Below the pieces are notes generated by a model. It saw only the letters and a program-made list of their open reading frames with translations. It had not been told where the DNA came from and ran no database searches. The translations under genes and the position numbers were made by a program. Positions 1 through 39,037 of a stretch of 39,037 nt of DNA are shown here, piece after piece. Position 1 is the first letter of the stretch, and every line of letters begins with the position of its first letter. Source of the stretch: a virus; the IMG/VR virus record IMGVR_UViG_3300037069_000794, positions 1-39,037 of that record, one strand, 5' to 3'.

Positions 1-127
1 AAGGTTGCAATGCTAATCCCAGCCGTTCCGTCGAAGTTCGCCGTACCTGTCACCGGCCCCGTTAATGCGATGGCGCGAGCGGTAGCAAGCTTGGTTGCCG
101 ATGCCGCGAGAGTTGAAGCCGCCGAAT
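1..127. repeat. Terminal overlap, left copy (circular contig)
   Basis: Bases 2-127 are identical to 38912-39037; base 1 is A while its counterpart 38911 is G. The reading frame of the tail-fibre gene continues without a break across the join. This is what an assembler leaves when it closes a circular or circularly permuted molecule, so the repeat is probably an assembly overlap rather than a biological terminal repeat. The unit length is about 38,910 bp. Confidence 0.9.
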
Positions 128-857: not shown

Positions 858-3800
858 CTACCTGCGTTTGCCGGTTGGTTTGGTGTTTCCAGAGAGCTTT
901 TCAAGCTCCTTGCGGCGGTCGTTAATCAGTCGAGCACCGACCCCAAGGGATTCCATCCCGTTACCCATGCCGAAACCGACAAGGTTGAGCGCGTCGGCCC
1001 CCTTGTTCATGTACCATTTCCAAGGGTCCTTGTTTCGGTTTGCATCCTCATTTTTGGAAAGCTTTCCGGTGGCTGATTGGACGAGTTTCCAAACCGAATC
1101 CAGCCCTCTTTCGGCGCTGCCAACGGCGGTGTGAGCGGGTTTGCCTTCGAGATGAGCAATCAAATCCCGAAGCAGCGGCATTTCAGCCAGGGGGCCAGCA
1201 AGCGCGGCAATGGCAAAATCCCGAGGCTCCCAATCGTGCGCGTTGAAAAAGCTATCCTCTTGGTCGTCGTGAGCCGAACGCCAAGCCGAAGACATCCCGG
1301 CGGCCATCAAGCCGCCTACAACGTGAGTGACGAACATCACGCGTGCGAGCTCAGTTTTGGAGCCTTCGCCGCTCATTGCGTGCTGAACTGCAGTCAGGAA
1401 CATTCCGGCTTTCTGTCGGCCGGGGGTTGCGAATAGCCACAAAAGCTTGCCCATTGGAGAGGCCCCGATTTCCGCAAGGCTGCGCTGAGTCATTGAAGCC
1501 GGGTAGGCGGTGCGGTAAACCATGTCTTCCGTGGCGTGCATCGCCATTGAATCGGCCTGCTCCTTGGTCATTCCTGGCATCTTCATCGCCTCGTTGAAAT
1601 GGTAATCGTAGGCGATGGCCGCTCCCCCTGTGGTGGCTACGGTGTCCACGAACGGGAGAATGTGCGTTCCAAGGTCCAAGAAGAGTTGGCGGCGGCTAGG
1701 GGCGGTTTCCCAAGACTTCGCCATTGCGGCTTTTTGCTCAGGGGACCAATCCCCATGAAGCCGGTTTTGGATGAAATCGGAATTCCAAATGTGACCGACT
1801 TCCATTTGACCAGCCAGAAGCTTTGCGAATCCCTTGGCGTAGGCCCCAAGCGGCATCTCGGCGGCGGCATTGAATGCGGAGAGAAGATGCTTGGATGCGG
1901 TCCCAAGGTTCCACGCAAGCCCTAGGTAAGCCGATGCCCCTGAAAGATGGCGGGCGATGTTATCGAGTTCTTTCCCAAGGCTCTTGGCTTTCAAGCCGCC
2001 GTCATTGATGGTTTTGACCCAATCCAAAAGCGGGTCGAGAGTGCTTTTGCCTTTGGCGGCTTCAAGAGAGTTGCGAACATCCTGGGAGCGCATGGTTCCA
2101 TTCATCTCCCGGGCGAACTCGGCGTAAGCCTTGAAATGCTCGGTTGCGGCTACGTGCTGGAAATAGTTCGTGAGCGCGTCGGCAAGTTCGGGGCGTGCTG
2201 AATGATTCTTTCGGGTCCGAAGGAAGCCAGTGCTCATCCCGCCGTCAAACATCACGTCTCCACCATAGGGAGACTGCGTAGCCTCTGCGGTGTCATGCTT
2301 GAACCGGGCCGGGGCATAGCCATCTTCCCGCGGTAGGTCAATCCCGTGCATGGATTGGAAGATTCGATTTAGCGGCTCGTATCCCTTGGCGTAGTTATCA
2401 GCCATCCAAGACCGGATTGCCTTGGCCTCATCTGGAAGCATCCCCTCGATTTTTGCCATCACCTCGGGCGTCCACCCGTTCTTTTCAAGGGCCTTGGCGT
2501 ACCGGCTTTGGCCTGCAAGCTGTGTCAAATAAACCCCCTCCATAGCGGTAAGCGGAACGGTTTCGGTGGTTCCCTTGGATTTGACGGTATCAACGGTCAC
2601 AGATTCCCGGCGCGAATCACTTGAGGACCACGCATCAACCGCCGATTTCAAGTCGGCCCGGTCCTCTTCTTTAATCCCGAATGGCTCAGGCTCAAGTTTG
2701 CCGTCAAGGATGTCGCGGGCGGTGTCGATTGGAATATCAACGCTCTCGACCTTCCGGCCCTCGATCTTGTCCACCTTGATATTGCGCTCGGTGCGGAGAT
2801 CCCAAAGAGCGCGGCCCCGTTCAAGTCGGCTGGTCTTTTTCCCGTAAATGGATTTTAGAAGCTCCTGAAACTCCCGGTGAGAATCGACCAAAGCTGTTTC
2901 CTTTTGGCGGGAGGCTTTTACATCGGCTTCGTGCCAGCGTTGCGTCACGGCATTGTCACGACCAAGAGCAACCTCCAAAACCTGTGTGAATGACCGGAAC
3001 CGCTGCAAGAGCCCCTTGGAGCCTCCATTAAGACCGCTATCAGCATCCTTGGAGGCGATCAGTTCGGAATCGGTCCCTTTCTTGCCTGCGCCGTCGATGA
3101 TTGCGCCGCGAAGCGACTTGACCTGTTCAAGCCTGGATTGCTCTTGGGCGATCCATGAGGAACGGCCTTTTTCGTAAATCTCCTTTGCGAGCTTGAATGA
3201 GGAAGCCAGTTCATCGGCGGTTTTGCCCTTCAAATCCCCAAACGCTTCGAGGTAATGAGCTTTTTCAGTCAGCGCCAGGATTGCCTTGGTGTCAGCCGGG
3301 TCGGTATCGGCGTAAGCCTGATTGATCCCGTCAAGTTCCCGCTGAACATCATCGCCACTGAGTTGTGAAACTCGGTCGATTTCCTTAAATGCCCGGTGGC
3401 CTTCAACGCCGATCTTGCCTTTGACCTTCTCGCCCTTACCTCCTACGGGATGGGATTTCTCGATTAAGCCTTCAATCTGGCCGGCGTAATCCTTCTTTAA
3501 GACGCCTTCGAGGGCCCGGTCAACTTTGCCAAGCTGCTCATTTACGAACTTTGCTCTGGCTGCGTTTCCCTTGAGCTCTGCGAGCATCTTATAGGCGCTT
3601 CCTCCGATCTTTGCGCGAACCTCGGGCGGCAGGGTGGAGGCAACGGCGTCAAGCGTGGCGAAGGCGTGAAGCATTTCAGCGCGTCCCGCCTTCTCTTTTC
3701 CCATGACTTCGAGCGCAAATGGATAGAGTGATTTATCGGCCTTGTCCTTGAGGGCTTGAATCTTCTCGCTGGCCCGCTCGTAAATCTTCAGCCGCTCCTT

Positions 3801-6731
3801 GGGGTCGCGTTTAAGCGCGTCGATCTTGTCGGAAATCCGTTGGGTGTAATCGGCGCTTGAGAGGGTGGAGAACGAAACGCCAGCAATCTCCCCGGCTGCT
3901 TCATGGGTAGCCTGCGAAACATTGCGCTCGTCCTTCAAGCCAACGCTCTTTGCAAGGAAGTCCTCAAAGTTCCCGCTGAGCTTGCCCGAGTCGGATAGAC
4001 TCTTGAGAGTTCCGGCCCGCTTGAATACCTCTTTGAAGTAGGTCACGGCACGGGCAATAAAGCCCATGACGCTCTTGGGTAGGCCCTCGATTGCCTTTAG
4101 GTTCCCGAAGAACTTGGCTTTCACCATGTCGGCAACGCCTTCTTGCAGGGCGGTTTCCTGTTGGGTGGGCGTGGCGTTCTCAGGGATTGCAAACTCTGGG
4201 TGATGCTCGGCCCAAGCTTTCACGGCTGCAAGTGCGTCCTCCATTGAGAGTGAACCGTCAGAGAGGGCTTTCTTTAAATCCCCGTGGGCGCGTTCCTCGA
4301 TCATGGTGTCAACGCTTCCACCTTGGTAAATCTTGGAAACGTCCGTGAAGAGGTTTTCTCGAATATCGGCCACGTTCTCACCTAGCACACGGAACCCGCT
4401 TGCCGTATCGCCCGCCTGCGCCCCGGCAATCCGCATCCGTTCGGCTACCTGTTCAGGAGTGGCTTGATTCTCGCCAATGGCATCTTGAAGTGTCTTGGAT
4501 TCCTTGATGAGCTCAACGCGACGATTCGGGTCTTTCTCCTCAAAGAACGCTTTCAGGTCGTTCATCGCCTGCGCTTCGTGGTCGCCGGTGATGTCGGAAG
4601 TCGTGCGATCGGTAACAGCCGCAAGAGCCGCCGATTCATCGCGGGTTTCAAGCGTGACGTTTCCGGCCTTGTCGAGCACCTGATAGCCGCCGTCTGCCGT
4701 TGTGCGAAGCGTGGGGGCCTCGGGGCTCTCCTGCATGGTTTTGGCGTGGTCAAGGTCTGCCTGCATCGCAACGCCTGCGGCCTTGATTTCTGCCGGGGTC
4801 CTTGCCTGCCAGGCCTGCCGGAATTGCTGCTCGGCGCCTGCTGCGTCTCCGCTGGCGTGGGCTTGGGCGATTGCCTGCGCGTCCTCGGGCTTAATTCCGA
4901 ACTTTTGAAGCGCGTCGGGGTCTTGAATGATCTTTGAGACAAACCCGCTTTCGTTGGACGCCATCACCCCGGCCCCGACCATTGCCATAGGCAACGCCAT
5001 CCAGAAGGTTTCAGGGGTTTGTTTCCATGCGTCCCCGATTTGCTGTTTCCAATCCACTTGCGGAACATCCTTATCGAGTGCGGAAATCACGCTTTGAGAA
5101 GCCGCTGGGATCAGGTTGATTCCCGTAAGCATCGCCGTTTGCTCGGCTGTCCCTGCTGCCGTTCCGATTGCCGCCCGCGCCCAAAAGTTTGAAGTCGGCG
5201 TCATGAGGTCGGAAACGGCCTTGGAAAAGAAAGGAAGTTTCCCGGCCATCGCCTGCAACGGAAGCTTGAATGCTGCCGCCTGCGCAACCCCCGTCACCCC
5301 AGCAACCATCGCGGCCTTGGTCGGGTCAAGGTCTGGATATTTCACCCGAAGCGAATCATAGGCCCCGCCGCTCATGGAAACGGCGGATAGCGCCAAGCCG
5401 CCAGGGATTGAAGCCTCTGCCATTAGGGGCGCTGATCCGGCCATCATGTAGAGCCCTTTTTCGGCTGCGTTGGGGATTACCCCCGTGAGAACCGGCTTGA
5501 TCGGGTCTAGATTGGTTTCCGCAAAGTTGCGAAGCTCGCGCAAGACTTGGTTGGTCTGAATCTTGGCGTTAACCTGAGCCAGAAGCGCCTTTCGTTCGGG
5601 CTCGGTGGCATCCCTTACGGGTCCGTCGATATTCAACGCCTGCGGCATCCCGGTCGCGAATGAGCCGACTGCTTGGCTTTGCGCCTGAACGCTTAAAAGA
5701 TTGTCGAGTGAAGCATCTTTCCCGACGATCTGAGGAGAGCCATTTTCAAGCTCCTCCTTAATTTTCGTAAGCTGCAAATCGGATGCGGCCCCAAAAGCTC
5801 CCGTTGCCAAGCTGGACGCGCCCCGCTCAAAGCTCTTGCCAGTTTGACCCCCAAAGGTCGAAAGCTTGTCGATGAAATCAACCGGGTTCTTGGCCCCGTT
5901 TTCCTTGGCGAACAAGGTCAGCATTCCGAAGACCGATTGCTTATCCTGCGGGCTGAGTGCGGCGATGCGAGAGGCAGCTTCATCCAATGTTTCGCCGGTC
6001 TTGAGCTTATTGTCACCAACGTCCTGGTTGAGAACGTCCCGGGCAACGGTGAACAAATCCTTGTTGGCTGTTGCTAGTGCGTAGCTGCGATTATAGGAAG
6101 CCTGAACCGTTTTCCAATCCTCGCCATTGTCAAAGCTGGGCGAGCCTTCGGGCCGGAAAGCTGCCGCCGTTGCGTTCATTGCCTGAAAGTGAGGAGCCCA
6201 ATCAGCGGGCTTACCTTCAAGCGCATCATTCAACCCCGTGTTGGCGCTGGTGGTTGCTATCTTGGAAAGGAGATCGTTCTTGGCCTTCGCGTCGTTGATA
6301 TTGCTCTGGACCGTGTTGAAAAACTCTCCATCGGTGATTTCAGGCTTTCCGAAGCGTTCGCGGGCAATCTTGTCCCGAAGCATCGGATAAACGTCCGTCA
6401 CCTGATCACGAGGCAATCCCTGCTGGGCGGCAATCCATCCGATATTTGCAAACCGCTTTTTGTCGGCCTCCTCATCGCTGCCAAGGAGCTTGGATGTCTG
6501 CGAGTTCTCAGGTGTCCATTGGCCCCCAAGGGTCTTGGGATCTGTGAACATGCTTTGCGCGCTCTCGATCCCGGCTTGATAATTTGCCTGCGCCCGCTGC
6601 GCCCGGTCGGCGTCAAACTGCTGGGCAATCTGTTGTTGGCGCTCGGGGGTTGCGTCGGGCGCGTCATGCTCGGCCACTAGCGCGTTAATCTGGTCGGGAT
6701 TCAAGAGCCCGGTTTGGTCGGGTGCGCTCAT
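858..6731 (-). CDS. Giant virion protein, probable internal (ejection) protein
   Basis: At 1957 residues this is the largest gene in the genome. Its place between the smaller internal virion proteins and the fibre is where T7-like phages encode their large ejection protein (gp16 type). The N-terminal 300 residues are Gln/Asp-rich and helical. Residues of about 420-600 carry several hydrophobic Gly/Ala-rich stretches that could insert into membrane. A long charged helical region, probably coiled coil, fills the middle. The C-terminus has further Ala/Met-rich amphipathic segments. Around residues 810-890 there is EERAHGDL followed by EGVADM, which faintly recalls zinc-peptidase motifs but lacks a proper HExxH, so I do not claim activity. 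The ATG shares one base with the stop of the upstream gene (TAATG). The role as a DNA-ejection or trans-envelope channel protein is inferred from size, position and composition. Confidence 0.65.
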   Translation of the reverse strand: MSAPDQTGLLNPDQINALVAEHDAPDATPERQQQIAQQFDADRAQRAQANYQAGIESAQSMFTDPKTLGGQWTPENSQTSKLLGSDEEADKKRFANIGWIAAQQGLPRDQVTDVYPMLRDKIARERFGKPEITDGEFFNTVQSNINDAKAKNDLLSKIATTSANTGLNDALEGKPADWAPHFQAMNATAAAFRPEGSPSFDNGEDWKTVQASYNRSYALATANKDLFTVARDVLNQDVGDNKLKTGETLDEAASRIAALSPQDKQSVFGMLTLFAKENGAKNPVDFIDKLSTFGGQTGKSFERGASSLATGAFGAASDLQLTKIKEELENGSPQIVGKDASLDNLLSVQAQSQAVGSFATGMPQALNIDGPVRDATEPERKALLAQVNAKIQTNQVLRELRNFAETNLDPIKPVLTGVIPNAAEKGLYMMAGSAPLMAEASIPGGLALSAVSMSGGAYDSLRVKYPDLDPTKAAMVAGVTGVAQAAAFKLPLQAMAGKLPFFSKAVSDLMTPTSNFWARAAIGTAAGTAEQTAMLTGINLIPAASQSVISALDKDVPQVDWKQQIGDAWKQTPETFWMALPMAMVGAGVMASNESGFVSKIIQDPDALQKFGIKPEDAQAIAQAHASGDAAGAEQQFRQAWQARTPAEIKAAGVAMQADLDHAKTMQESPEAPTLRTTADGGYQVLDKAGNVTLETRDESAALAAVTDRTTSDITGDHEAQAMNDLKAFFEEKDPNRRVELIKESKTLQDAIGENQATPEQVAERMRIAGAQAGDTASGFRVLGENVADIRENLFTDVSKIYQGGSVDTMIEERAHGDLKKALSDGSLSMEDALAAVKAWAEHHPEFAIPENATPTQQETALQEGVADMVKAKFFGNLKAIEGLPKSVMGFIARAVTYFKEVFKRAGTLKSLSDSGKLSGNFEDFLAKSVGLKDERNVSQATHEAAGEIAGVSFSTLSSADYTQRISDKIDALKRDPKERLKIYERASEKIQALKDKADKSLYPFALEVMGKEKAGRAEMLHAFATLDAVASTLPPEVRAKIGGSAYKMLAELKGNAARAKFVNEQLGKVDRALEGVLKKDYAGQIEGLIEKSHPVGGKGEKVKGKIGVEGHRAFKEIDRVSQLSGDDVQRELDGINQAYADTDPADTKAILALTEKAHYLEAFGDLKGKTADELASSFKLAKEIYEKGRSSWIAQEQSRLEQVKSLRGAIIDGAGKKGTDSELIASKDADSGLNGGSKGLLQRFRSFTQVLEVALGRDNAVTQRWHEADVKASRQKETALVDSHREFQELLKSIYGKKTSRLERGRALWDLRTERNIKVDKIEGRKVESVDIPIDTARDILDGKLEPEPFGIKEEDRADLKSAVDAWSSSDSRRESVTVDTVKSKGTTETVPLTAMEGVYLTQLAGQSRYAKALEKNGWTPEVMAKIEGMLPDEAKAIRSWMADNYAKGYEPLNRIFQSMHGIDLPREDGYAPARFKHDTAEATQSPYGGDVMFDGGMSTGFLRTRKNHSARPELADALTNYFQHVAATEHFKAYAEFAREMNGTMRSQDVRNSLEAAKGKSTLDPLLDWVKTINDGGLKAKSLGKELDNIARHLSGASAYLGLAWNLGTASKHLLSAFNAAAEMPLGAYAKGFAKLLAGQMEVGHIWNSDFIQNRLHGDWSPEQKAAMAKSWETAPSRRQLFLDLGTHILPFVDTVATTGGAAIAYDYHFNEAMKMPGMTKEQADSMAMHATEDMVYRTAYPASMTQRSLAEIGASPMGKLLWLFATPGRQKAGMFLTAVQHAMSGEGSKTELARVMFVTHVVGGLMAAGMSSAWRSAHDDQEDSFFNAHDWEPRDFAIAALAGPLAEMPLLRDLIAHLEGKPAHTAVGSAERGLDSVWKLVQSATGKLSKNEDANRNKDPWKWYMNKGADALNLVGFGMGNGMESLGVGARLINDRRKELEKLSGNTKPTGKRR

Positions 6732-8656
6732 TATTGGTTGAATGCTGCGAGTTCTGCCTTACGGCGATTAACGAGCCCGGGAAGCTCAACCATTTGACCG
6801 CCTTGAGCCTGCTTGGTGTATTGGCTCATTCTGGCCTGTAAATCGGCTATTCCCTTGCTGCGTGAGAGAACGCTTGCGCCCGCGCCCGTGTTAAAGTCGA
6901 AGCTTACAAGCGCGTCCCGTTGGGCTTGAGTCAGGTTCCATCCTCCTTGTTTTGCCGCTGCATCAACGCTTTGTGCGCTGGTGGAAAGCTCCTGCCTCAA
7001 TCTGGCGTCGGCCTGAGGTTCGTCAATAACTTCACCGATGGACTTTGCCCGGGTGCCATAGCCGACGCTGTTTTGAGTGCCGTCATGGAAAGCGTTTGCG
7101 TTGAATCCCTCGCGCTCCTTGACCTGCTCAACCAGCGCGTCACTCACCCCGGCCTTCGCCGTAGGGCTTGCGGTGATTTGGTCGTAACGCGGGCTCAAGG
7201 AAACCGCGTCAGGGTGAGCGCCCCAAGTCGTTGGGTGCAGCAGGTGCCAAGTGTTATCATGGTAGACATCCGGCGCGGGCGGCGGCGTGGCCTGTTTCAC
7301 CTTGTCGTTGAGCCATTGCTCGGCATCCTTAAGGCTGGATTTAGGATTCTCCTTTGTCCATTGGGAAAGGTCGTACTGGATGGCCGAGGCGGCTTCCCAT
7401 GCCTTCCCGGCTGCGGCTGGGTCAACGGGTTGGCCGTTCTTCTTGGTCACGTCCCCGAATGTCCCCATTGAGGTAAGCTGCTGAATCCGGCTACTCAAGG
7501 TCTGCTTGATGGTCGTGTCCGGTGACTCCGAATGCTCAAGGGCTTTGCGGATAGGATCTTTCCAACCTTCTGGCAGCGCGTGAATGTCTCCCGTGATGGC
7601 GTAGAGTTTCGCGCCGTCAGGGTCCTTGGAAGCGTCGTAATTATTGGCCTTATAAAGCGTGTTGGCCCATTGCTCAGGGTCGGGCGGCTGGGTCTTGCCC
7701 ATCTTCGCCATGATGATGTCTTCATCCGTGTGGCTCAGATACCCACCGGCAAGCGTCTCGATCTGTTCTCTGCCACCGTTCAAGAGATTATTCTCGGCCA
7801 TCTGCACAATTTGATCCCTGCGCCGTCCTCGCTCGGTATAGGTCGCCCGGGTGGCTTCATCCTGTAGCTTCTCAAGCTGCGGGAGGGAAAGCTTTGAGCC
7901 CTGAACCTGCCCCTTGTCGTCCACCAACCCGGCAAGCTGCTGTTGAACGGCCATTGGGTCGGCATCAATGCCACGCTCCCACTGGTTGAGTTCGTGCTTC
8001 TGGTCGATGTGCTTGGCGTACTCGTCGATCACTTCCGGGTGGTCGATGTGTTGTGCCTTCATCTGATCCAAGGTCGCATGAGCCCCGGCAATGTCCCCCG
8101 CGTCGGTCTGATCGTTGACCCGGTTAAAGAAGGTCTGCTTGGCAAGCTCGGCCTCTTTGGAAGCTGCGGTAAGATTCAATTCGTCGGTGGTCTTGACGCC
8201 AAAGTGATTGGCGTACATCGAAAGCTGTTGTTTTGCCAAGGGCGACAAGTCGGGATTGCTGACGGTTGAGCTAATGACATCCGGTAGCCGGTCTTTCCAA
8301 CCCTGCGTGATCTGGTTGGGATCAAGCCCGGGTTGTTTGGCGACTTCCGCTTGATAATCCGAATAGGCTTTCCCGATGGCGTCTTGACCTTCCATCACTT
8401 GCCGCTGAACCCGAAGCTGTGCGGCCTTGTCGGCAATCTGGCCGGTTACACTTCCAATCTCGGACACGCCTTTTGCGACCTGCTGCAATCCTTCGTAGGG
8501 AGCGGAGAGAAGATCAATCGGGGCCTGCCGCTGTTGGAGTTGCTGTTTGGCCTCTCCGAACGTCTGCATGACGGAGCGTTGAGCCCCGCCCGTGTCTGGA
8601 ATGCCGGGGTTTGCTTGGGGAGCATTCGGGACCTCTGCCAGTGGGATATTAGGCAT
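6731..8656 (-). CDS. Internal virion protein with C-terminal GH24-type lysozyme
   Basis: The protein has 641 residues. Residues 1-490 are helical and Gln/Ala-rich with no recognised domain. Residues 504-641 resemble a T4/P1-type lysozyme. Glu516 is followed by Gly and, nine residues later, Asp525, then SVGYGTR, which matches the E-8-D-5-T layout of the family with Ser530 near the position of the usual catalytic Thr. A conserved LVSFDFNTGAG segment and a C-terminal GLVNRRKAE segment (around 626-635) complete the fold. It is probably carried in the virion and cuts peptidoglycan locally during DNA entry, like the transglycosylase of T7 gp16, although it could also act in lysis. The upstream gene starts at 9300 and stops 5 bp before this ATG. 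Confidence 0.75.
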   Translation of the reverse strand: MPNIPLAEVPNAPQANPGIPDTGGAQRSVMQTFGEAKQQLQQRQAPIDLLSAPYEGLQQVAKGVSEIGSVTGQIADKAAQLRVQRQVMEGQDAIGKAYSDYQAEVAKQPGLDPNQITQGWKDRLPDVISSTVSNPDLSPLAKQQLSMYANHFGVKTTDELNLTAASKEAELAKQTFFNRVNDQTDAGDIAGAHATLDQMKAQHIDHPEVIDEYAKHIDQKHELNQWERGIDADPMAVQQQLAGLVDDKGQVQGSKLSLPQLEKLQDEATRATYTERGRRRDQIVQMAENNLLNGGREQIETLAGGYLSHTDEDIIMAKMGKTQPPDPEQWANTLYKANNYDASKDPDGAKLYAITGDIHALPEGWKDPIRKALEHSESPDTTIKQTLSSRIQQLTSMGTFGDVTKKNGQPVDPAAAGKAWEAASAIQYDLSQWTKENPKSSLKDAEQWLNDKVKQATPPPAPDVYHDNTWHLLHPTTWGAHPDAVSLSPRYDQITASPTAKAGVSDALVEQVKEREGFNANAFHDGTQNSVGYGTRAKSIGEVIDEPQADARLRQELSTSAQSVDAAAKQGGWNLTQAQRDALVSFDFNTGAGASVLSRSKGIADLQARMSQYTKQAQGGQMVELPGLVNRRKAELAAFNQ

Positions 8657-22786: not shown

Positions 22787-23352
22787 TTCCGTTCCTCCCG
22801 TTGTTGTTTGATTCGGGCGAGGTCTTCACAAGTATCCAGATAATCCGTTAACATTCCCGGTTCATTGGTGCCGAACGTTTCAAGCCTCTCCGCAACCTCA
22901 AGAAGCTCTGTGAGGGTGGATTTGAAGCCGTCACGTTCACAGATCAGCCGATACTTACACCCCTTCTTGTGGTGCTTGATCTCGTTCGTTTTGGTGTCGC
23001 AGTTGCAAGCGGCGATGATGGAGTCTGAATCGTCGGCAAACAGATACTTTTGAACCGCATCGCTTGCTCGCTTTAGCTGGTCGCGTTGCTCCTTCGCCTC
23101 CGCAAGCTCATTCCTTAGTCTCAGAAGCTCCTCCATCTCGGTTTCCCCGGCTACAGCCTCGGAGTAGTCAGAGACGAGTTTCGAGAGTGCGTTTTTGGTT
23201 TCCGCCAGATCATTCTTGGCCGCTTCAAGCCCGGCGTTGGATGCGGTCAGTTCGGTTTCGAGTTGCTGCGTAAACAAGTCGAACCTAATTGACCAATCTC
23301 CACCCATCCAAAATTCTCCCCTTGCGCGGTCTGTTCTCGGTGTCTCGCTCAC
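22783..23352 (-). CDS. Coiled-coil protein with TPRTD N-terminus
   Basis: The protein has 189 residues with a GTG start that overlaps the upstream stop (GTGA). The N-terminus SETPRTDRARGEF resembles that of the 65-residue protein at 27370-27567 and other phage proteins. Residues of about 25-95 form coiled coil (LETELTASNAGLEAAKNDLA, LRNELAEAKEQRDQLKRAS). A Cys-rich insert (CNCDTKTNEIKHHKKGC) may bind metal. The function is unknown. Confidence 0.7.
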   Translation of the reverse strand: MSETPRTDRARGEFWMGGDWSIRFDLFTQQLETELTASNAGLEAAKNDLAETKNALSKLVSDYSEAVAGETEMEELLRLRNELAEAKEQRDQLKRASDAVQKYLFADDSDSIIAACNCDTKTNEIKHHKKGCKYRLICERDGFKSTLTELLEVAERLETFGTNEPGMLTDYLDTCEDLARIKQQREERK

Positions 23353-24188
23353 TTGGTTTCCTCCTTGGCTTTGCTGATCCGGCTGTCTAGGTCGCTGGTT
23401 GTTAGGTTCATTCCAGCCTCCAAAGATTCAATCTCTCCAACAAACTTGAGCGGGTAAACTTTGCCTCTCTTTCGTGCATCGTAACCCTTGGAGCAATATC
23501 GCTCGAAAGCTTGGCGTGGAGTCTCGCCTTCCATCATGTCAATTCCGTGGCCGATTGTGCCGCCCTTCCATGATCCCTTTTCTGGTCCGACTTCAGCGCT
23601 GAATTGCAGATCGAGGGAACGCCGGATTTTCGCGGGCCAGAAGAATCCAAGCCACTTGAACCAGCCCTCGCCACGATGCCATTCCCGCTCGTCGATCAGG
23701 CATGTCGCGGTGATTCGCTCTCCATCGTAATCATCGAACTCGAATCGGGATGTTGGGCAGGTTTCCTTGATCCGCATGAACTCAAAGAACTTTCCTTTAC
23801 CCTTCTCCTCGCTGGCGAAGTGCTCCCCGGTGGGCGTGTAGCAGCTAAACCGGACGCAGCGCCATTGTTTCCAAGGCAAGTGCTTGCACCAATGCCTTTC
23901 AGTGCTGGTGTCGTGAGTCTGGGGGCCGTAATAGACTTGCACGAAGTCATAACCATTGCCCATGTCACTGATGCTGAATCCGTATCGTCGGCAGTGCTCG
24001 CCGTACTTGCCAAACGGCTTGATCGTAAATGGTAACCGCACTCGCAAAGCCCACCCGAATGCGGCAATCAGGAGGTTCGTTGTGCGGTCTTCATCATCTC
24101 CTCCGCTGATGTAGAACGAAAATGTCTTGCTCCATCTGGCCAGCGTAAAAGGCCCAAGGTTTCTGTCGTTGTCTGATAGTCGGCTCAT
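23349..24188 (-). CDS. Conserved phage protein beside DpdA, unknown function
   Basis: The protein has 279 residues and is rich in Trp, Tyr, Phe, His and Gly. Clear blocks are RNLGPFTLARWSKTF, GYDFVQVYYGPQTHD, LPWKQWRCVRFSCY, HRGEGWFKWLGFFW and SAEVGPEKGSWKGGTIGHGI. I recall this family as a widespread, uncharacterised phage protein, without a proven activity. Its place right after DpdA, 32 bp away, makes a link with DNA modification possible but unproven. I chose the ATG at 24188, which has AAAGGAAAAT upstream; an in-frame ATG at 24260 lies inside DpdA. Confidence 0.65.
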   Translation of the reverse strand: MSRLSDNDRNLGPFTLARWSKTFSFYISGGDDEDRTTNLLIAAFGWALRVRLPFTIKPFGKYGEHCRRYGFSISDMGNGYDFVQVYYGPQTHDTSTERHWCKHLPWKQWRCVRFSCYTPTGEHFASEEKGKGKFFEFMRIKETCPTSRFEFDDYDGERITATCLIDEREWHRGEGWFKWLGFFWPAKIRRSLDLQFSAEVGPEKGSWKGGTIGHGIDMMEGETPRQAFERYCSKGYDARKRGKVYPLKFVGEIESLEAGMNLTTSDLDSRISKAKEETK

Positions 24189-24220: not shown

Positions 24221-24949
24221 TTAAAAAGTTAGTTCCACTTGCTTGTTGTTTTCGATCCACACGGGGGCCGATTGGTGGGCTTCGATTCTTTGGGCTATAA
24301 CGTCCATTCTGGTTCCTTGGTTTGGAGCTGCGTAGACTCCGAATCTTCCGATTGAGCAGCCGTTGCGAACGGCGTTTGTTGAGTCGGCAGATGAAAGAGG
24401 CAGTCTTGTGAAAATGTCAGGCGAGAGCATTCGGAGTCCGTGAAGCTTGCATGGTGGCCTTCCATCGCTGTCACAGATTGAACCTATTGCCTCACTCATC
24501 CTTGCCCACCAAGATTCTGTACCTGGCGTTTCCCATTCGCCGCTAGAGCCAAGGCAGACAACCCGAAAGGAATCGCAGAGGCGTTTCAGTCGGTCGATTG
24601 ATTCGTGCATGTGCCAAACAGGAGCGCCGTCTAAATCGTCCGGCCAATCTGAAAGCATGGCGTCGTTTGCGGCCTCGTCGCCTTCGATTTCGTCCGGTAT
24701 GATCGCCCAATCAAAGGCGGGGTGTCTGTGCCATGTCCGGCAGAACTCGATATAGCCAGCAACGTCCAGTTTTCCGCCCTGCTTCCAGATGGTGAATGCT
24801 CCGTTGTCCAGAATGAACGACTGACAGACTTCGGCTGCTGTAGCTATGTCCTCGGGCCTTGGGAACGGAATCAGAATGTGACGGCCTTTCATAAATCGCG
24901 CCGCCTCCTCCCGTTTTCCTCCGCATGGTGTGCCGTGGTAATGGATCAT
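24221..24949 (-). CDS. dpdA: DpdA-like DNA transglycosylase (7-deazaguanine insertion)
   Basis: The protein has 242 residues. It has the layout I know from phage DpdA-type transglycosylases, relatives of tRNA-guanine transglycosylase: IHYHGTPCGGKREEAARF at the start, SFILDNGAF with Asp48, FDWAIIPDEIEGDEAAND with Asp86, a CLGSSGEWETPG loop (132-143), then KLHGLRML and SSADSTNAVRNG with Asp189. It exchanges guanine in DNA for preQ0 (or a derivative) without breaking the strand. The first Met in this layout is the ATG at 24949, which overlaps the queC stop by four bases (ATGA), so the two are coupled. Which Asp is the nucleophile cannot be told from sequence. Being shorter than tRNA-type enzymes is usual for phage forms. 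Confidence 0.75.
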   Translation of the reverse strand: MIHYHGTPCGGKREEAARFMKGRHILIPFPRPEDIATAAEVCQSFILDNGAFTIWKQGGKLDVAGYIEFCRTWHRHPAFDWAIIPDEIEGDEAANDAMLSDWPDDLDGAPVWHMHESIDRLKRLCDSFRVVCLGSSGEWETPGTESWWARMSEAIGSICDSDGRPPCKLHGLRMLSPDIFTRLPLSSADSTNAVRNGCSIGRFGVYAAPNQGTRMDVIAQRIEAHQSAPVWIENNKQVELTF

Positions 24950-25542
24950 ATCGAGAACCGAGTACCCGCCTGAAGGAATGCCTCTGTGCGCTTCTTGCAC
25001 GCTTCGCATGAATAGCATGGTTCTTGGCCTCCGATGTAGCAGGACCAAGTTTTATCGAACGGAACGCCGAGGCTTTGGCCGATCTGAACAACATCGCGCT
25101 TTGAAAGTATCTGGTAGGGCGTTTCGATCCTTGCGCTTAATCCAGCAAGCGAAAGTGATTGGTTCATTACGGTAACGAACATCGGTCGGCAGTCTGGGAA
25201 CCCGTCATAATCTTCCCGTGTGCATCCGTAGGTTATGATTCGCCTATTCTGCCCTTCCGCTATCGCTGCCGCCACCGACAGAAAAACCATGTTCCGGTTT
25301 GGAACCACGACGCTTCCGCTTCCTCCAAGCAGGCTTGAGCGGCTGAACACTCGGGCCAGTTGAACAAGCTCGAACGGAACCCTCAACTCTTCGCAAATCG
25401 ACTTTGCGGCATCAATCTCCTTGTAGTGGGTCTGCCCGTAATCGAAGCCGACGCACTTAACGTCAAAGCCCTTATTTATGTGGTCATAGAGCATTACGGT
25501 GGAATCAAGACCCCCGCTGTGTAGATGAACGATTCGTTTCAT
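24946..25542 (-). CDS. queC: QueC, 7-cyano-7-deazaguanine (preQ0) synthase
   Basis: The protein has 198 residues. An ATP-pyrophosphatase loop, SGGLDST, lies at residues 9-15. VPNRNM is at 80-85 and CTREDYDGFPDCR at 107-119. The zinc site is four cysteines at 168, 176, 179 and 182 (CYIGGQEPCYSCEAC), all diagnostic of QueC. It converts 7-carboxy-7-deazaguanine to preQ0 with ATP and ammonia. It is a little shorter than bacterial QueC but lacks nothing essential. FolE, QueD and QueE are not encoded here, so their product must come from the host. The ribosome site AGGGAG lies 8 bp upstream, and DpdA follows with a 4-bp overlap. Confidence 0.92.
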   Translation of the reverse strand: MKRIVHLHSGGLDSTVMLYDHINKGFDVKCVGFDYGQTHYKEIDAAKSICEELRVPFELVQLARVFSRSSLLGGSGSVVVPNRNMVFLSVAAAIAEGQNRRIITYGCTREDYDGFPDCRPMFVTVMNQSLSLAGLSARIETPYQILSKRDVVQIGQSLGVPFDKTWSCYIGGQEPCYSCEACKKRTEAFLQAGTRFSI

Positions 25543-25701: not shown

Positions 25702-26391
25702 TTAAATCGGTACAATTCGGCTAAACTCGCTCAGTCGCCTTACAATCGGTTCCCCCCGGTCTGAGCCGAACCGCTTCTCAAGCCACGCTCCTGACCCGTT
25801 TGCACTCCAAAGAATTGGTAATATGAAGGATGTTCGGTGCTCGATTAAGTCCTCAATCTCGGAATCTGCCCGCTCGGTCGATGGCGGTTTGCCAAGATCA
25901 TCAATCAGCAAGAAATTAGCGCGACGGAATGATTCAAGCTTTGCCTTGGCCTCCGCCTTCTCTTTGCCATCCCCGGCAAATGCTTCCTGCACGATTCGGG
26001 AGAATTTGGCGTGGGATACGGATGCGCAAGACTTTTGGGCATCAAAGGCGATTTTAAGAGCGAGGAACAAGGCTCTAGTCTTGCCAAGCCCGCTGCTTCC
26101 TGTGAGCCCAAGCCCCATTTTCAAATCGACATCGAACGATGCAGCAGCCTCCATGCATTTCGGGTGCAGCCGTTCAGGGTTGGTGTCGCGGTAAATTGGG
26201 GGGCAAATAGCGTTCCATGCGTCAGCCATTTCCCTTGCCTTAATTCGGTTTTTTTCGGCGTTTATTTCGGCGTCTGCGGCCCTGGTGCAATCCTCGCATT
26301 TCCGGTTTGCGAAAACCTCGCGTCCGTCAAAGATGATCGGAATGCCCATAAACTCCTTACCGCATACGCATTTGTAGAGTTTACCATCCAT
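25702..26391 (-). CDS. DnaC/IstB-like helicase loader ATPase with N-terminal zinc finger
   Basis: The protein has 229 residues. An N-terminal Cys cluster (8, 10, 32, 35) forms a small zinc finger, followed by a helical linker. The AAA+ domain has Walker A GSSGLGKT (98-105), Walker B LLIDDLGK (161-168), a sensor-like Asn near WSANG (198) and an arginine near the VRRL finger (219). It is like DnaC and the phage-encoded loaders that place the host DnaB helicase at the origin. I chose the ATG at 26391, which overlaps the upstream replication gene by 11 bp and starts the zinc finger; an in-frame ATG at 26556 lies deep inside that gene. Confidence 0.85.
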   Translation of the reverse strand: MDGKLYKCVCGKEFMGIPIIFDGREVFANRKCEDCTRAADAEINAEKNRIKAREMADAWNAICPPIYRDTNPERLHPKCMEAAASFDVDLKMGLGLTGSSGLGKTRALFLALKIAFDAQKSCASVSHAKFSRIVQEAFAGDGKEKAEAKAKLESFRRANFLLIDDLGKPPSTERADSEIEDLIEHRTSFILPILWSANGSGAWLEKRFGSDRGEPIVRRLSEFSRIVPI

Positions 26392-27124
26392 ATTTTTCGT
26401 GTTTCTGCTTGTGAAGCGCCTCGTCTGCGGCGCCTCTTTGGTTTCCGTTGAATTTAGGCTTAAGAGCAGCCTGCCTGCGGTCGGTTTCCTGGCATCCTCT
26501 CCACCACGAAGAGAGCAGCGGTTTCCATTTGCGAATTGGGATGTTGTTTCGATCAACCCAGCCGACTCCCTCCTTTTCCTCGTACCACTTGCGGGCCATT
26601 TCCTCGGGACATGGGGGAATGAGTCTTGATCCTTCCGAAATCACATCGTCCACGTTTGCGACAGCCTCGCGCTGTGTGTGGACTATTTCTTTATGTTCTT
26701 CCCCTTCTTCTTTATATATAGGCTGTCGTTCAAGTGTCGTTTGAGCGTCGTCTAATCGTCGTTTATCCGTCTTTTTTGTGTCCTGCAATGCGTTGTAAGT
26801 CTCGTAATTGCATAGCATTAGCACGGTGTTTCCGTGTCTTTTTTCCGTCTTAATCATGCCCTCGGATTTAAGGATTTCGAGAAACGAGCATACTTTCGTA
26901 TTTGACCACTTCCAGCGGCCAGAGAGGTAGCGCACTGAGGCGACAAGGCCCCCCCTCGGTATCTCGACTAACTTTCCGTCCACCAATCGGCTTTCCTGCT
27001 TCCAAGCTGCGGTGTGCAAGACATCCAGCCAAGCTTCGGCACGGGAAAACGCACGGTGCTCCGTCCACAACGCATGATTAAAGAACCTGCGCGAGAGTCG
27101 TATGAATGCACCAGGATCACTCAT
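26381..27124 (-). CDS. Replication initiator with winged-helix domain
   Basis: The protein has 247 residues. Residues 1-115 look like the winged-helix domain of phage replication organisers: FIRLSRRFFNHALW, AEAWLDVLHTAAW, IPRGGLVASVRYLSGRW and KVCSFLEILKSEGMI, with a following KTEKRHGNTVLML wing. An acidic, disordered middle follows, then a helical region (IPIRKWKPLLSSWWRG) that may contact the helicase loader. It lies directly before a DnaC-like loader, the usual initiator-loader pair. It may bind an origin within its own gene or the leader. I chose the ATG at 27124; the leader hairpin masks its ribosome site. Confidence 0.75.
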   Translation of the reverse strand: MSDPGAFIRLSRRFFNHALWTEHRAFSRAEAWLDVLHTAAWKQESRLVDGKLVEIPRGGLVASVRYLSGRWKWSNTKVCSFLEILKSEGMIKTEKRHGNTVLMLCNYETYNALQDTKKTDKRRLDDAQTTLERQPIYKEEGEEHKEIVHTQREAVANVDDVISEGSRLIPPCPEEMARKWYEEKEGVGWVDRNNIPIRKWKPLLSSWWRGCQETDRRQAALKPKFNGNQRGAADEALHKQKHEKYGW

Positions 27125-27572: not shown

Positions 27573-29780
27573 TTAAACGGCGAATAGGTCGCGGGTTTCT
27601 TCCTCGGCAAATCGCAGATATTCACAACCCGTTTTCCAGTAGGATTCCTTCAACTCCGACCCGATGAACTTTCGGCCCATGCGCACAGAGCAATAGCCCT
27701 CTGAACCAATCCCGCCAAATGGCGAAAAAACCGTGTCGCCTGGGGCGCTCCACATCAGCAATGCCCTCTCGATAACGTCGAGTTGAAGCGGGCAAATGTG
27801 CCGCTCGTCAGCCTGATCTCTGGATAGCTTCCCGTTGAGAACTCGCCCTTGGTCAACTGTCATCCAAACCGGCGAGGCGATTTCCTGCCAACGATCCAGC
27901 GGGAACGATTCGGGAGTGTGAGTGATTGGTTTCGGGTTGTCCCCTCGCTTTCTGAAGATTAGGAGATATTCAGCGGCTCTTACGCGGCTCTTGCTTGAAT
28001 CGGTCCTCAGCGTTTTATAAAGAAGACCGTGCGCCTTGGTGCGCTGCATTTCGGTAACTGGATCTTTCCAGATCGTGATTCGGGAATGGAACAGCCATCC
28101 ACGCTCACGGAACGCCGAAGAAATAGCTCCTGAAAAGTCCCTGAACTCAATGTCCCCGTCTTTCCATTTCGTAGCCAGCAAATCGCAGCAATGAACCGCG
28201 CACTCACGCCCCGGCATCGTTATTCGGTTAAGTTCATCAATCAGGAATCCGAATTGCTCCATAAAGGAATCAAGCCCATCACAATTCCCCATATCCTGAA
28301 CGTCATTTGAGTAGGTAAACAGGTCCGCGAATGGCGGAGAAAATACACTAAATCCAATCGAATTATCGGGGATTGTTTTGGCGACACGAACGCAATCTCC
28401 GTTGTGAAAGGACCAGTTGTCCGTTGAGAGTGTTTTTATATCGGTGTTCATGGCTGTAAATTCGCTATCGTTGGTTAGGTTTTCTCTTGTGAATTGCATA
28501 AATTCCCGCATCTTTTCGTGTTGATCGTTCTTTCGCATAATCGCCGCCATGACTCCATTTTCCGTGTCAGCTTGGACTATGTAGCGATGAACTGTTTTCT
28601 TTTGCCCGAATCGGTGAATGCGTTTGCTGGCTTGGTAGAACCGCTCGAATGAATGATTCATTCCAACGTAGATTTCTTGGCAACAATGCTGCCAGTTCAG
28701 TCCGAATCCTGTGATGCTTGCCTTGGTGATGATTACGCGAGCTTCACCGAGTGCGAACATTTCCAGCTTCTTTTCCTTATGATCCACTCGGTCGCTTCCG
28801 ATGATTTCAACGGCATCGGGAATCAACGAAAGCAATTCACATGATTCATCATTTGATTCACACCAAACCACGAACGGCCCGGTTGATTCGTTAACGATCT
28901 GCGCAGCGGATTGCACCCTGTCTTGCATCGTGCGCCGCTGCTCCCGGTGAAAGTCAGTAGCGGAAACGTGTGGGTTTACGAAAAGCTCTCCAGATTCAAA
29001 ACTCGCCCGGTGGTCAACTTCAACCGTGACAATATGAGTTTCGACTCGAGGCAGATTAAATCCATCATCAGAGAATCCTATATCGCTTGGCTTTCCGACA
29101 CACGCAGCCCAAGAGGAAACCCAACGCCAGAATGGTTCAACAGCATGGCCTTTAAGCCTCCATGTTCCCGTGTCGAACGTATCATTGATGAAATAGGTTG
29201 CGAGCATTTCAGCGGGCTTGCAAACCCCCAGGAACTCGGCGTGTTGTCCTAGTTCGGTAAAGTCATTAGGTGCAGGCGTAGCGGTGCAGCATAGGCGGTA
29301 AGGAGTCGCCGCGAACATATCCGTCAGGAGTCTCCGTGTCTTTCCGTTGAATCCCTTTAATATGCTCGATTCGTCTAGTACCACTCCCGCAAAATCAGCA
29401 GGATCAAATAGCGCGATCCTGTCGTAATTGGTAATATTAATTCCCGGCTTGGAGTCCTCCTGATTCCGGCAGAGATTGACCTTAATTCCAAACTTTTCTC
29501 CTTCCTTAATGGTCTGCGATGCAACCGCAAGAGGGCAAACAACGATCACGCTTCCGCCTGTGTATTCGCAGACGTGCCGCGCCCATTCGAGTTGTTGAAG
29601 AGTCTTTCCTAATCCGCAATCCTCGAACAACGCGCATTTTCCTACCTTTAACGCCCAATGAACGATGATCTTTTGCCATTCAAACAGGCTTGGATTCAAT
29701 TGTGATGATGGCTCGAATCCACTTGAACTGACTGCCTTTGATTTTGCCCTGATTAGGCTCTCGTATTCTGTTAAACTCAT
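27573..29780 (-). CDS. SNF2-type helicase fused to DNA methyltransferase
   Basis: The protein has 735 residues in two halves. The helicase half has Walker A GLGKT (56-60), motif II DESS (136-139), motif III TATPAPND (166-173) and motif VI QASKRIHRFGQ (383-393), the SNF2-like RxxRxGQ pattern. The methyltransferase half starts near residue 455 (FHNGDCVRVAKTIPDNSIGF) and has the catalytic SPPF motif (481-484) and the cofactor-binding FSPFGGIGSEG (685-695), in the order of beta-class enzymes that methylate N6-adenine or N4-cytosine. It could move along DNA and methylate it, protecting it from host restriction or marking it. No specificity domain or restriction nuclease is linked, so it is probably an orphan modifying enzyme. 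Confidence 0.85.
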   Translation of the reverse strand: MSLTEYESLIRAKSKAVSSSGFEPSSQLNPSLFEWQKIIVHWALKVGKCALFEDCGLGKTLQQLEWARHVCEYTGGSVIVVCPLAVASQTIKEGEKFGIKVNLCRNQEDSKPGINITNYDRIALFDPADFAGVVLDESSILKGFNGKTRRLLTDMFAATPYRLCCTATPAPNDFTELGQHAEFLGVCKPAEMLATYFINDTFDTGTWRLKGHAVEPFWRWVSSWAACVGKPSDIGFSDDGFNLPRVETHIVTVEVDHRASFESGELFVNPHVSATDFHREQRRTMQDRVQSAAQIVNESTGPFVVWCESNDESCELLSLIPDAVEIIGSDRVDHKEKKLEMFALGEARVIITKASITGFGLNWQHCCQEIYVGMNHSFERFYQASKRIHRFGQKKTVHRYIVQADTENGVMAAIMRKNDQHEKMREFMQFTRENLTNDSEFTAMNTDIKTLSTDNWSFHNGDCVRVAKTIPDNSIGFSVFSPPFADLFTYSNDVQDMGNCDGLDSFMEQFGFLIDELNRITMPGRECAVHCCDLLATKWKDGDIEFRDFSGAISSAFRERGWLFHSRITIWKDPVTEMQRTKAHGLLYKTLRTDSSKSRVRAAEYLLIFRKRGDNPKPITHTPESFPLDRWQEIASPVWMTVDQGRVLNGKLSRDQADERHICPLQLDVIERALLMWSAPGDTVFSPFGGIGSEGYCSVRMGRKFIGSELKESYWKTGCEYLRFAEEETRDLFAV

Positions 29781-38456: not shown

Positions 38457-39037
38457 TTAAGCTTTGATTTCCTGCACGAGCATGGTTGAGGCGGCGATGC
38501 CACCAAAAAGGCGGGCGGAATTGGTTCCGTTTAGGCGCATGGTTCCGGTGTTGGCTCCAACTCGGAGGGTGAACGTAATGGGAGTTAACGCACCCACCGC
38601 CGCCGACTCATAAACGAGGTTGATCACCGTCGAGGAGGAAAAAATAACATTTCCAGAAACGGCCACCGCACTGCTTCCTCCGTTGAACAAAGCCGCTATT
38701 GCGGTATTTCCACTGGAAGCCGCCGACGCGATTGAGTTGAAGAAAACGCGGATTTTTGAAGTCGTCGAGGTGGGCGTAATGGAGACACTTAAAACCTGCG
38801 TCCCTTCTGTGTTTTGGGGGATGGTATCGTCTAGTGGGATGACGGTCGTTAGGTCGGCGTTCGCGGTATAAATCCCGGTAACGCTTTGAATCACCGCCCC
38901 GGCCAAAAGGGAGGTTGCAATGCTAATCCCAGCCGTTCCGTCGAAGTTCGCCGTACCTGTCACCGGCCCCGTTAATGCGATGGCGCGAGCGGTAGCAAGC
39001 TTGGTTGCCGATGCCGCGAGAGTTGAAGCCGCCGAAT
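38457..39037 (-). CDS. Tail fibre protein, C-terminal part (continues from 797..1)
   Basis: This is the 3' part of the 416-residue fibre gene. It contains a repeat-like segment rich in Gly, Thr and Ala with the phrase GPVTGTANFDG, typical of fibre and tail-tip shafts. The last 130 residues or so form a beta-rich head with a SKIRVFF strand and a TFTLRVGAN strand, resembling jelly-roll-like C-terminal heads of phage fibres. The last 127 bases of this interval duplicate the window start. The stop at 38457 lies 4 bp before the ATG of the SGNH fibre gene, so the two are probably co-translated and may form one fibre complex. Confidence 0.75.
   Translation of the reverse strand, partial: SAASTLAASATKLATARAIALTGPVTGTANFDGTAGISIATSLLAGAVIQSVTGIYTANADLTTVIPLDDTIPQNTEGTQVLSVSITPTSTTSKIRVFFNSIASAASSGNTAIAALFNGGSSAVAVSGNVIFSSSTVINLVYESAAVGALTPITFTLRVGANTGTMRLNGTNSARLFGGIAASTMLVQEIKA
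38911..39037. repeat. Terminal overlap, right copy (circular contig)
   Basis: This is the second copy of the 126-127 base overlap with the window start. The codon that spans the join reads TCC (Ser) in this copy. In the left copy the first base differs, which suggests that base 1 of the window is a trimming or assembly error. Confidence 0.9.

Follow-up and report, generated by a model that had tools for sequence, protein, structure and literature searches.

A QueC-DpdA gene pair in a closed podovirus-type phage genome: a probable host-dependent DNA base-exchange module

DpdA-only phages, full-pathway phages and a phage without one pathway step are already known, the last being Bipper, which lacks QueC (PMC6884629). 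The largest phage DpdA group has no pathway genes; Hutinet et al. left the 7-deazaguanine chemistry of that group open and found YhhQ uncorrelated with any phage group (PMC6884629). 7-Deazaguanines have been measured in the DNA of phages MED16, 7-11 and 9g (PMC8306585, PMC6884629). In MED16 DNA, 7-amido-7-deazaguanine (dADG) amounted to 0.13% of G and dPreQ0 to 0.001% (PMC8306585), while 7-11 DNA carried mainly dADG, at 0.02% of G (PMC6884629). Measured modification in the short DpdA clade is very low, at 0.02-0.13% of G in these two phages. With Gat-QueC and DpdA of 9g, a protected-DNA phenotype was obtained in delta-queC E. coli and none in delta-queD, and tRNA Q was not restored, which the authors read as channelling (PMC6884629). 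Type IV CBASS, with Cap9 and Cap10, is the one known system found to join QueC-like and TGT-like proteins for another function. A literature search of partial reach returned no description of a closed genome whose only pathway genes are QueC and DpdA, or of an exchangeable supply gene beside a short DpdA.

The window analysed here is a stretch of 39,037 nt comprising the whole virus record IMGVR_UViG_3300037069_000794. Because positions 2-127 (+ strand, 126 nt) are an exact copy of 38912-39037, the genome is closed, and the record is a complete circular genome with a closed length of about 38,910 bp. This 126-nt end overlap and the closed genome led us to reject a terminal-fragment artefact. 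A mismatch at the first base of the record may explain why the end repeats had gone unnoticed. Tail tubular proteins, a head-tail adaptor, a major head protein and terminases identified a podovirus-type phage. The phages nearest in terminase and tail proteins (about 31-42% identity) infect very different hosts, so no host was assigned. A 1957-aa protein encoded at 858-6731 on the minus strand had no PHROG or Pfam match and is probably an internal virion protein, judging by position and size.

In transcription order, the early block consists of RecT, an exonuclease, a helicase-methyltransferase fusion, DnaD-like and DnaC-like helicase loaders, QueC, DpdA and an Acb3-family gene. The QueC-DpdA pair forms the end of the early operon and the terminases come after it; its position downstream of RecT, exonuclease, helicase and helicase loaders bears out the placement of the pair inside a replication block in the earlier note. 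Upstream of queC lies the DnaC-like helicase loader (25702-26556, minus strand; PHROG 50, E 1.2e-15). The fusion gene (27573-29780, minus strand), which joins a SNF2-type helicase to an N6/N4 DNA methyltransferase (PF00176 plus PF01555, PADLOC MTase_II 1.4e-21), is a second DNA-modifying gene in the block. The helicase part of this fusion weakly resembles DpdE and DrmD, and a protein similar to the fusion was found near the DpdA of another contig (L072). Directly downstream of DpdA, the gene at 23349-24188 (minus strand) matched PF25187 with E 4.6e-65, and phages of Synechococcus, Sulfitobacter and Vibrio carry relatives of it. "Acb3 (CBASS inhibitor)" is the family name given by Pfam, and in a full-text literature search no paper was found naming Acb3 together with CBASS or phage. 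Judged by its family, this neighbour is likely a counter-defence gene lying outside the base pathway.

The queC gene (24946-25542, minus strand) encodes 198 aa, which matched PF06508 with E 1.1e-51 and scored 162.3 bits against the NCBIfam model TIGR00364, above its cut-off of 150.3. The complete ATP loop and zinc cysteines that had been claimed for it were present: the SGGLDS loop, YGQTHYKE, VPNRN, FPDC and four zinc cysteines in CY(x)6CxxCxxC were all intact, and the protein carries the canonical QueC signature defined in PMC13329287. The position read as YPDC in that signature is FPDC here, and the E. coli QueC Y131F mutant retained partial activity (PMC13329287). The zinc spacing is C(x)7C, a feature shared with other phage QueCs, instead of C(x)8C. 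An AlphaFold model (pLDDT 88.7) had the solved QueC structures 2pg3 and 3bl5 as its closest PDB entries (TM 0.82-0.83), with Cap9 next (TM 0.73). In a tree of 84 QueCs, from which one host row with a misread frame (L250) was disregarded, the window protein grouped with phage QueCs of QueD-QueC-DpdA operons (100/98), apart from bacterial QueCs. Since its branch is long (1.34), this placing is provisional and the grouping may partly be an artefact. A host origin of the gene was unsupported, the tree placing it with phage QueCs. By its motifs, profile scores and modelled fold, the product is a genuine QueC, with catalytic activity predicted.

The dpdA gene (24221-24949, minus strand) encodes 242 aa and belongs to a short, host-dependent clade. 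The profile search against DpdA and TGT families proposed in the earlier note gave PHROG 887, "queuine tRNA-ribosyltransferase", at E 1.1e-66; no Pfam model matched. Translation starts at the ATG at 24949, where homologues begin MIHYHGTP, and a longer reading from TTG 25048 was rejected because the homologous N-termini lie at MIHYHGTP. The claimed overlap proved to be an ATGA of 4 nt shared by the QueC stop and the DpdA start. Of the claimed aspartate motifs, D48, D86 and D189 were invariant in 40 diverse relatives, together with H170. blastp retrieved the DpdAs of MED16 (5e-42), 7-11 (4e-28) and 9g (4e-7), and identity was 62% to Epa33, 48% to BTP1, 38% to MED16 and 30% to 7-11. A DpdA profile had one significant match in the PDB, the DNA-guanine transglycosylase 7UI4 (E 4.5e-4), with an alignment covering the conserved His and catalytic Asp region; phmmer with the single sequence found nothing in the PDB, so that the profile was needed to reach 7UI4.

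Structure comparison with TGT divided. The predicted model was a barrel (pLDDT 84) that matched phage queuine-TGT and DpdA models in a viral structure library (E down to 5.5e-10), whereas Foldseek against the PDB returned generic TIM barrels as top matches, with TGT not first. The window protein is far shorter than bacterial TGT, and its profile gave no signal either way against proteobacterial TGT with TrpA as control, the alignments being too shallow. The DpdA tree separated a full-pathway clade including 9g from a short clade (100/100); the latter holds the window, BTP1, Pam5, 7-11 and the DpdAs of QueD-QueC-DpdA and QueC-QueE-DpdA operons, and MED16 falls with 7-11 inside it. The product of 24221-24949 is a DpdA-like transglycosylase, predicted to exchange 7-deazaguanine into DNA.

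Model searches of the closed genome detected no FolE, QueD, radical SAM/QueE, QueF, class-II GATase (GATase_7) or Vut_1/YhhQ, in agreement with the earlier claim that these biosynthetic genes and an amidotransferase are missing. The absence is meaningful because the genome is closed. The phage would thus depend on 7-carboxy-7-deazaguanine (CDG) from its host, as had been proposed, since the upstream steps are missing. Among bacteria carrying a short-clade DpdA, full-length QueC was present in 30 of 33 genomes, which suggests that such bacteria mostly possess the host pathway.

In order to place the pair among its relatives, 134 loci (80 viral, 54 genomic; some are near copies) were fetched using DpdA alone as query. 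A supply gene was scored as linked when it lay on the same strand less than 900 bp from DpdA, with the outer flanks (1.1 Mb) as control. Such a gene adjoined DpdA in 28 loci (24 YhhQ, 2 QueD, 1 QueE and 1 QueC, the QueC case being a virus near-identical to the window phage), compared with 1 supply gene per 1.1 Mb in the outer flanks. After de-duplication, 17 YhhQ, 2 QueD, 1 QueE, 1 QueC and 1 QueC plus QueE remained in a DpdA tree of 108 members including named phages. The partner labels on this tree required at least 16 changes; therefore, linkage between DpdA and a supply gene arose repeatedly.

At least 600 pattern matches to the window DpdA were found in viral contigs, nearly all of them relatives. 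A convincing QueC was present in only 1 of 50 DpdA-match records, that of a near-identical virus; the second contig with the pair (L005) is from a near-identical virus. One relative (G016) showed a 345-aa partial QueC match. Overlapping genes formed a QueC-QueE-DpdA operon at L092:8001-9963 and in L091, with DpdAs 49-51% identical to that of the window; QueD and FolE were not found in the 54-kb record of this operon. QueD-QueC-DpdA operons occurred in over a dozen contigs (L099-L115, L085, L089), where DpdA is about 210 aa long and divergent, and five whole records of this type contained no QueE and no FolE. In the pathway the QueE step falls between QueD and QueC. QueD stood with DpdA in Caulobacter phage DMCA, its PTPS match barely over the Pfam cut-off. 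DpdA was accompanied by YhhQ in Rhizobium phage RHph_N3_2 and Pseudanabaena phage Pam5 (Vut_1 above the Pfam cut-off), and Vut_1 beside the DpdA of K392 scored below it. YhhQ-type genes touched or overlapped short DpdA in several contigs (L063:7519-8001, L007:534-1040, L037:8603-9214 and others), either before or after it. A full-pathway viral contig (L137) carried two DpdA genes, at 6659-7426 and 7766-8542.

From these comparisons, the gene slot beside short DpdA has changed its occupant many times, and in the window QueC fills it. The repeated linkage to four different supply steps of a single pathway is the strongest evidence found here that short DpdAs probably use 7-deazaguanine.

We consider it probable that the two genes form a module for base exchange in DNA that depends on the host. 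CDG would come from the host enzymes FolE, QueD and QueE, and phage QueC would convert it with ATP and ammonia to ADG and then to preQ0. In phage DNA, the short DpdA would replace selected guanines by the free 7-deazaguanine base, a conserved aspartate serving as nucleophile as it does in tRNA-guanine transglycosylases, and would leave dPreQ0 or dADG in place. The ATGA coupling would keep QueC and DpdA in step and may favour direct hand-over of the base from one to the other; by analogy, the pair appears laid out for the same channelling as Gat-QueC and DpdA of 9g. Short-DpdA modules in general would carry at most a small supply part (YhhQ import, QueD, QueE, QueC or a pair of these), presumably the step that is limiting in the respective host. 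Protection of the phage DNA from restriction, which the earlier note took as frequent, is something we infer for this phage and is not a given: nearly all of the enzymes tried on MED16 DNA, which contains 0.13% dADG, were able to cut it, Dam-sensitive ones excepted (PMC8306585).

The same module may place dADG in DNA, either because DpdA uses the ADG intermediate of QueC or because inserted preQ0 is hydrated later. This is a sub-case of base exchange, so that the two confidences overlap, and taken by itself we hold it tentatively. MED16 and 7-11, the sole measured phages of the short clade, carry mainly dADG with little or no dPreQ0 (PMC8306585, PMC6884629), and QueC reaches preQ0 via ADG (PMC13329287); for these reasons we treat a stop at preQ0 as no more than plausible. 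Against dADG, YhhQ is a reported preQ0 transporter (PMC5372724) and is the commonest short-clade partner, which suggests preQ0 as the free substrate, as does the presence of QueC itself. 9g DpdA alone yielded dPreQ0 in E. coli (PMC6884629), and among the window's genes, many of them nameless, none could be identified as DpdB/DpdC-like. The balance between dPreQ0 and dADG is close to even.

The low levels measured in relatives would also be expected of a relic or idle pair, in which a precursor-starved DpdA leaves no more than traces of the modified base and QueC rides along. Modification was absent from Mycobacterium phage Orion, whose DpdA stands alone (PMC6884629). We regard such decay as unlikely, given that the catalytic motifs of both proteins are complete, the genes are ATGA-coupled, the pair is also present in the near-identical virus, and supply genes were gained repeatedly beside short DpdA.

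The homology to TGT and the hosts' own Q pathway would fit a pair that increases the preQ0 supply and acts on G in tRNA, by base exchange, for better phage translation, and Q boosting has been proposed for phages that have pathway genes but no DpdA (PMC6884629). Nevertheless, a delta-tgt strain was not rescued by 9g DpdA (PMC6884629), the substrate of bacterial TGT is preQ1 yet QueF was not detected in the phage, the relatives MED16 and 7-11 have the base in DNA, and no tRNA genes were found in the window. A role in tRNA is thus quite improbable.

A pair acting on protein, as Cap9 and Cap10 do, would handle or attach a deazaguanine at a protein N-terminus, or compete for CDG and so stop host Cap9 from activating CBASS. 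Type IV CBASS joins QueC-like Cap9 with transglycosylase-family Cap10 (PMC11996544), and the window QueC matched solved Cap9 (9nto, E 2.8e-11), is short, shares with Cap9 a zinc spacing of 7 residues, and lies near the Acb3-family gene that immediately follows the pair. Nevertheless, it is nearer true QueC both in sequence (83 bits, against 47 to Cap9) and in fold (TM 0.82 against 0.73). It keeps the H of YxQxHxxE, a full VPxRN and the CY of the zinc motif, whereas Y/FxQ(x)5E and CE are typical of Cap9 (PMC13329287). DpdA had no PADLOC match, and its profile found a DNA-guanine transglycosylase and no Cap10 chain. A CD-NTase or nucleotidyltransferase was not seen among the nameable genes of the genome, in which many genes are nameless, and the relatives' partners QueD, QueE and YhhQ make or import the free base or its precursors. 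Sequence, fold, motifs and partners favour QueC and DpdA, and we therefore give this protein-directed role very little weight. About as slight is the chance that, in addition to modifying DNA, the pair weakens a host type IV CBASS together with the Acb3-family gene, either by depriving Cap9 of CDG or by acting on deazaguanylated protein as Cap10 does.

Base exchange in DNA with host-supplied CDG remains our preferred reading. For the clade whose chemistry had been left open, the presence of QueC, QueD, QueE or YhhQ beside DpdA, far above the outer-flank rate, argues for 7-deazaguanine chemistry, and the linkage suggests that phages patch or top up a single limiting supply step in the host pathway. 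With its own synthesis step packed into a very small module, the QueC-DpdA pair offers a compact two-gene test system for the identity of the inserted base and for direct hand-over by QueC.

Among known systems, the type IV CBASS pair likewise unites QueC-family and TGT-family enzymes; Cap9 and Cap10, however, modify and bind a protein N-terminus, whereas the window pair is nearer QueC and DpdA in sequence and fold. The FolE-QueD-QueE-QueC-DpdA type of Escherichia phage CAjan and Mycobacterium phage Rosebush, which makes dPreQ0, resembles the window in having QueC and DpdA without an amidotransferase, and dPreQ0 is predicted for the window. That type encodes the entire pathway (PMC6884629), which the window does not, and full-pathway DpdAs form a separate clade. 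The DpdA-only phages Pantoea MED16, Salmonella 7-11, Lederbergvirus BTP1 and Pseudomonas Epa33 share the short DpdA clade with the window. No FolE, QueD or QueE is reported for MED16 and 7-11, where host precursor is used, and the window is alike in this; these two phages are without QueC, whereas in the window QueC is ATGA-coupled to DpdA. Similar in plan are DMCA, RHph_N3_2, Pam5 and the viral contigs with QueC-QueE-DpdA (L091/L092) or QueD-QueC-DpdA (L099-L115) operons, which combine a short DpdA with a small supply part as the window does, but differ in the supply step, which in the window is QueC alone.
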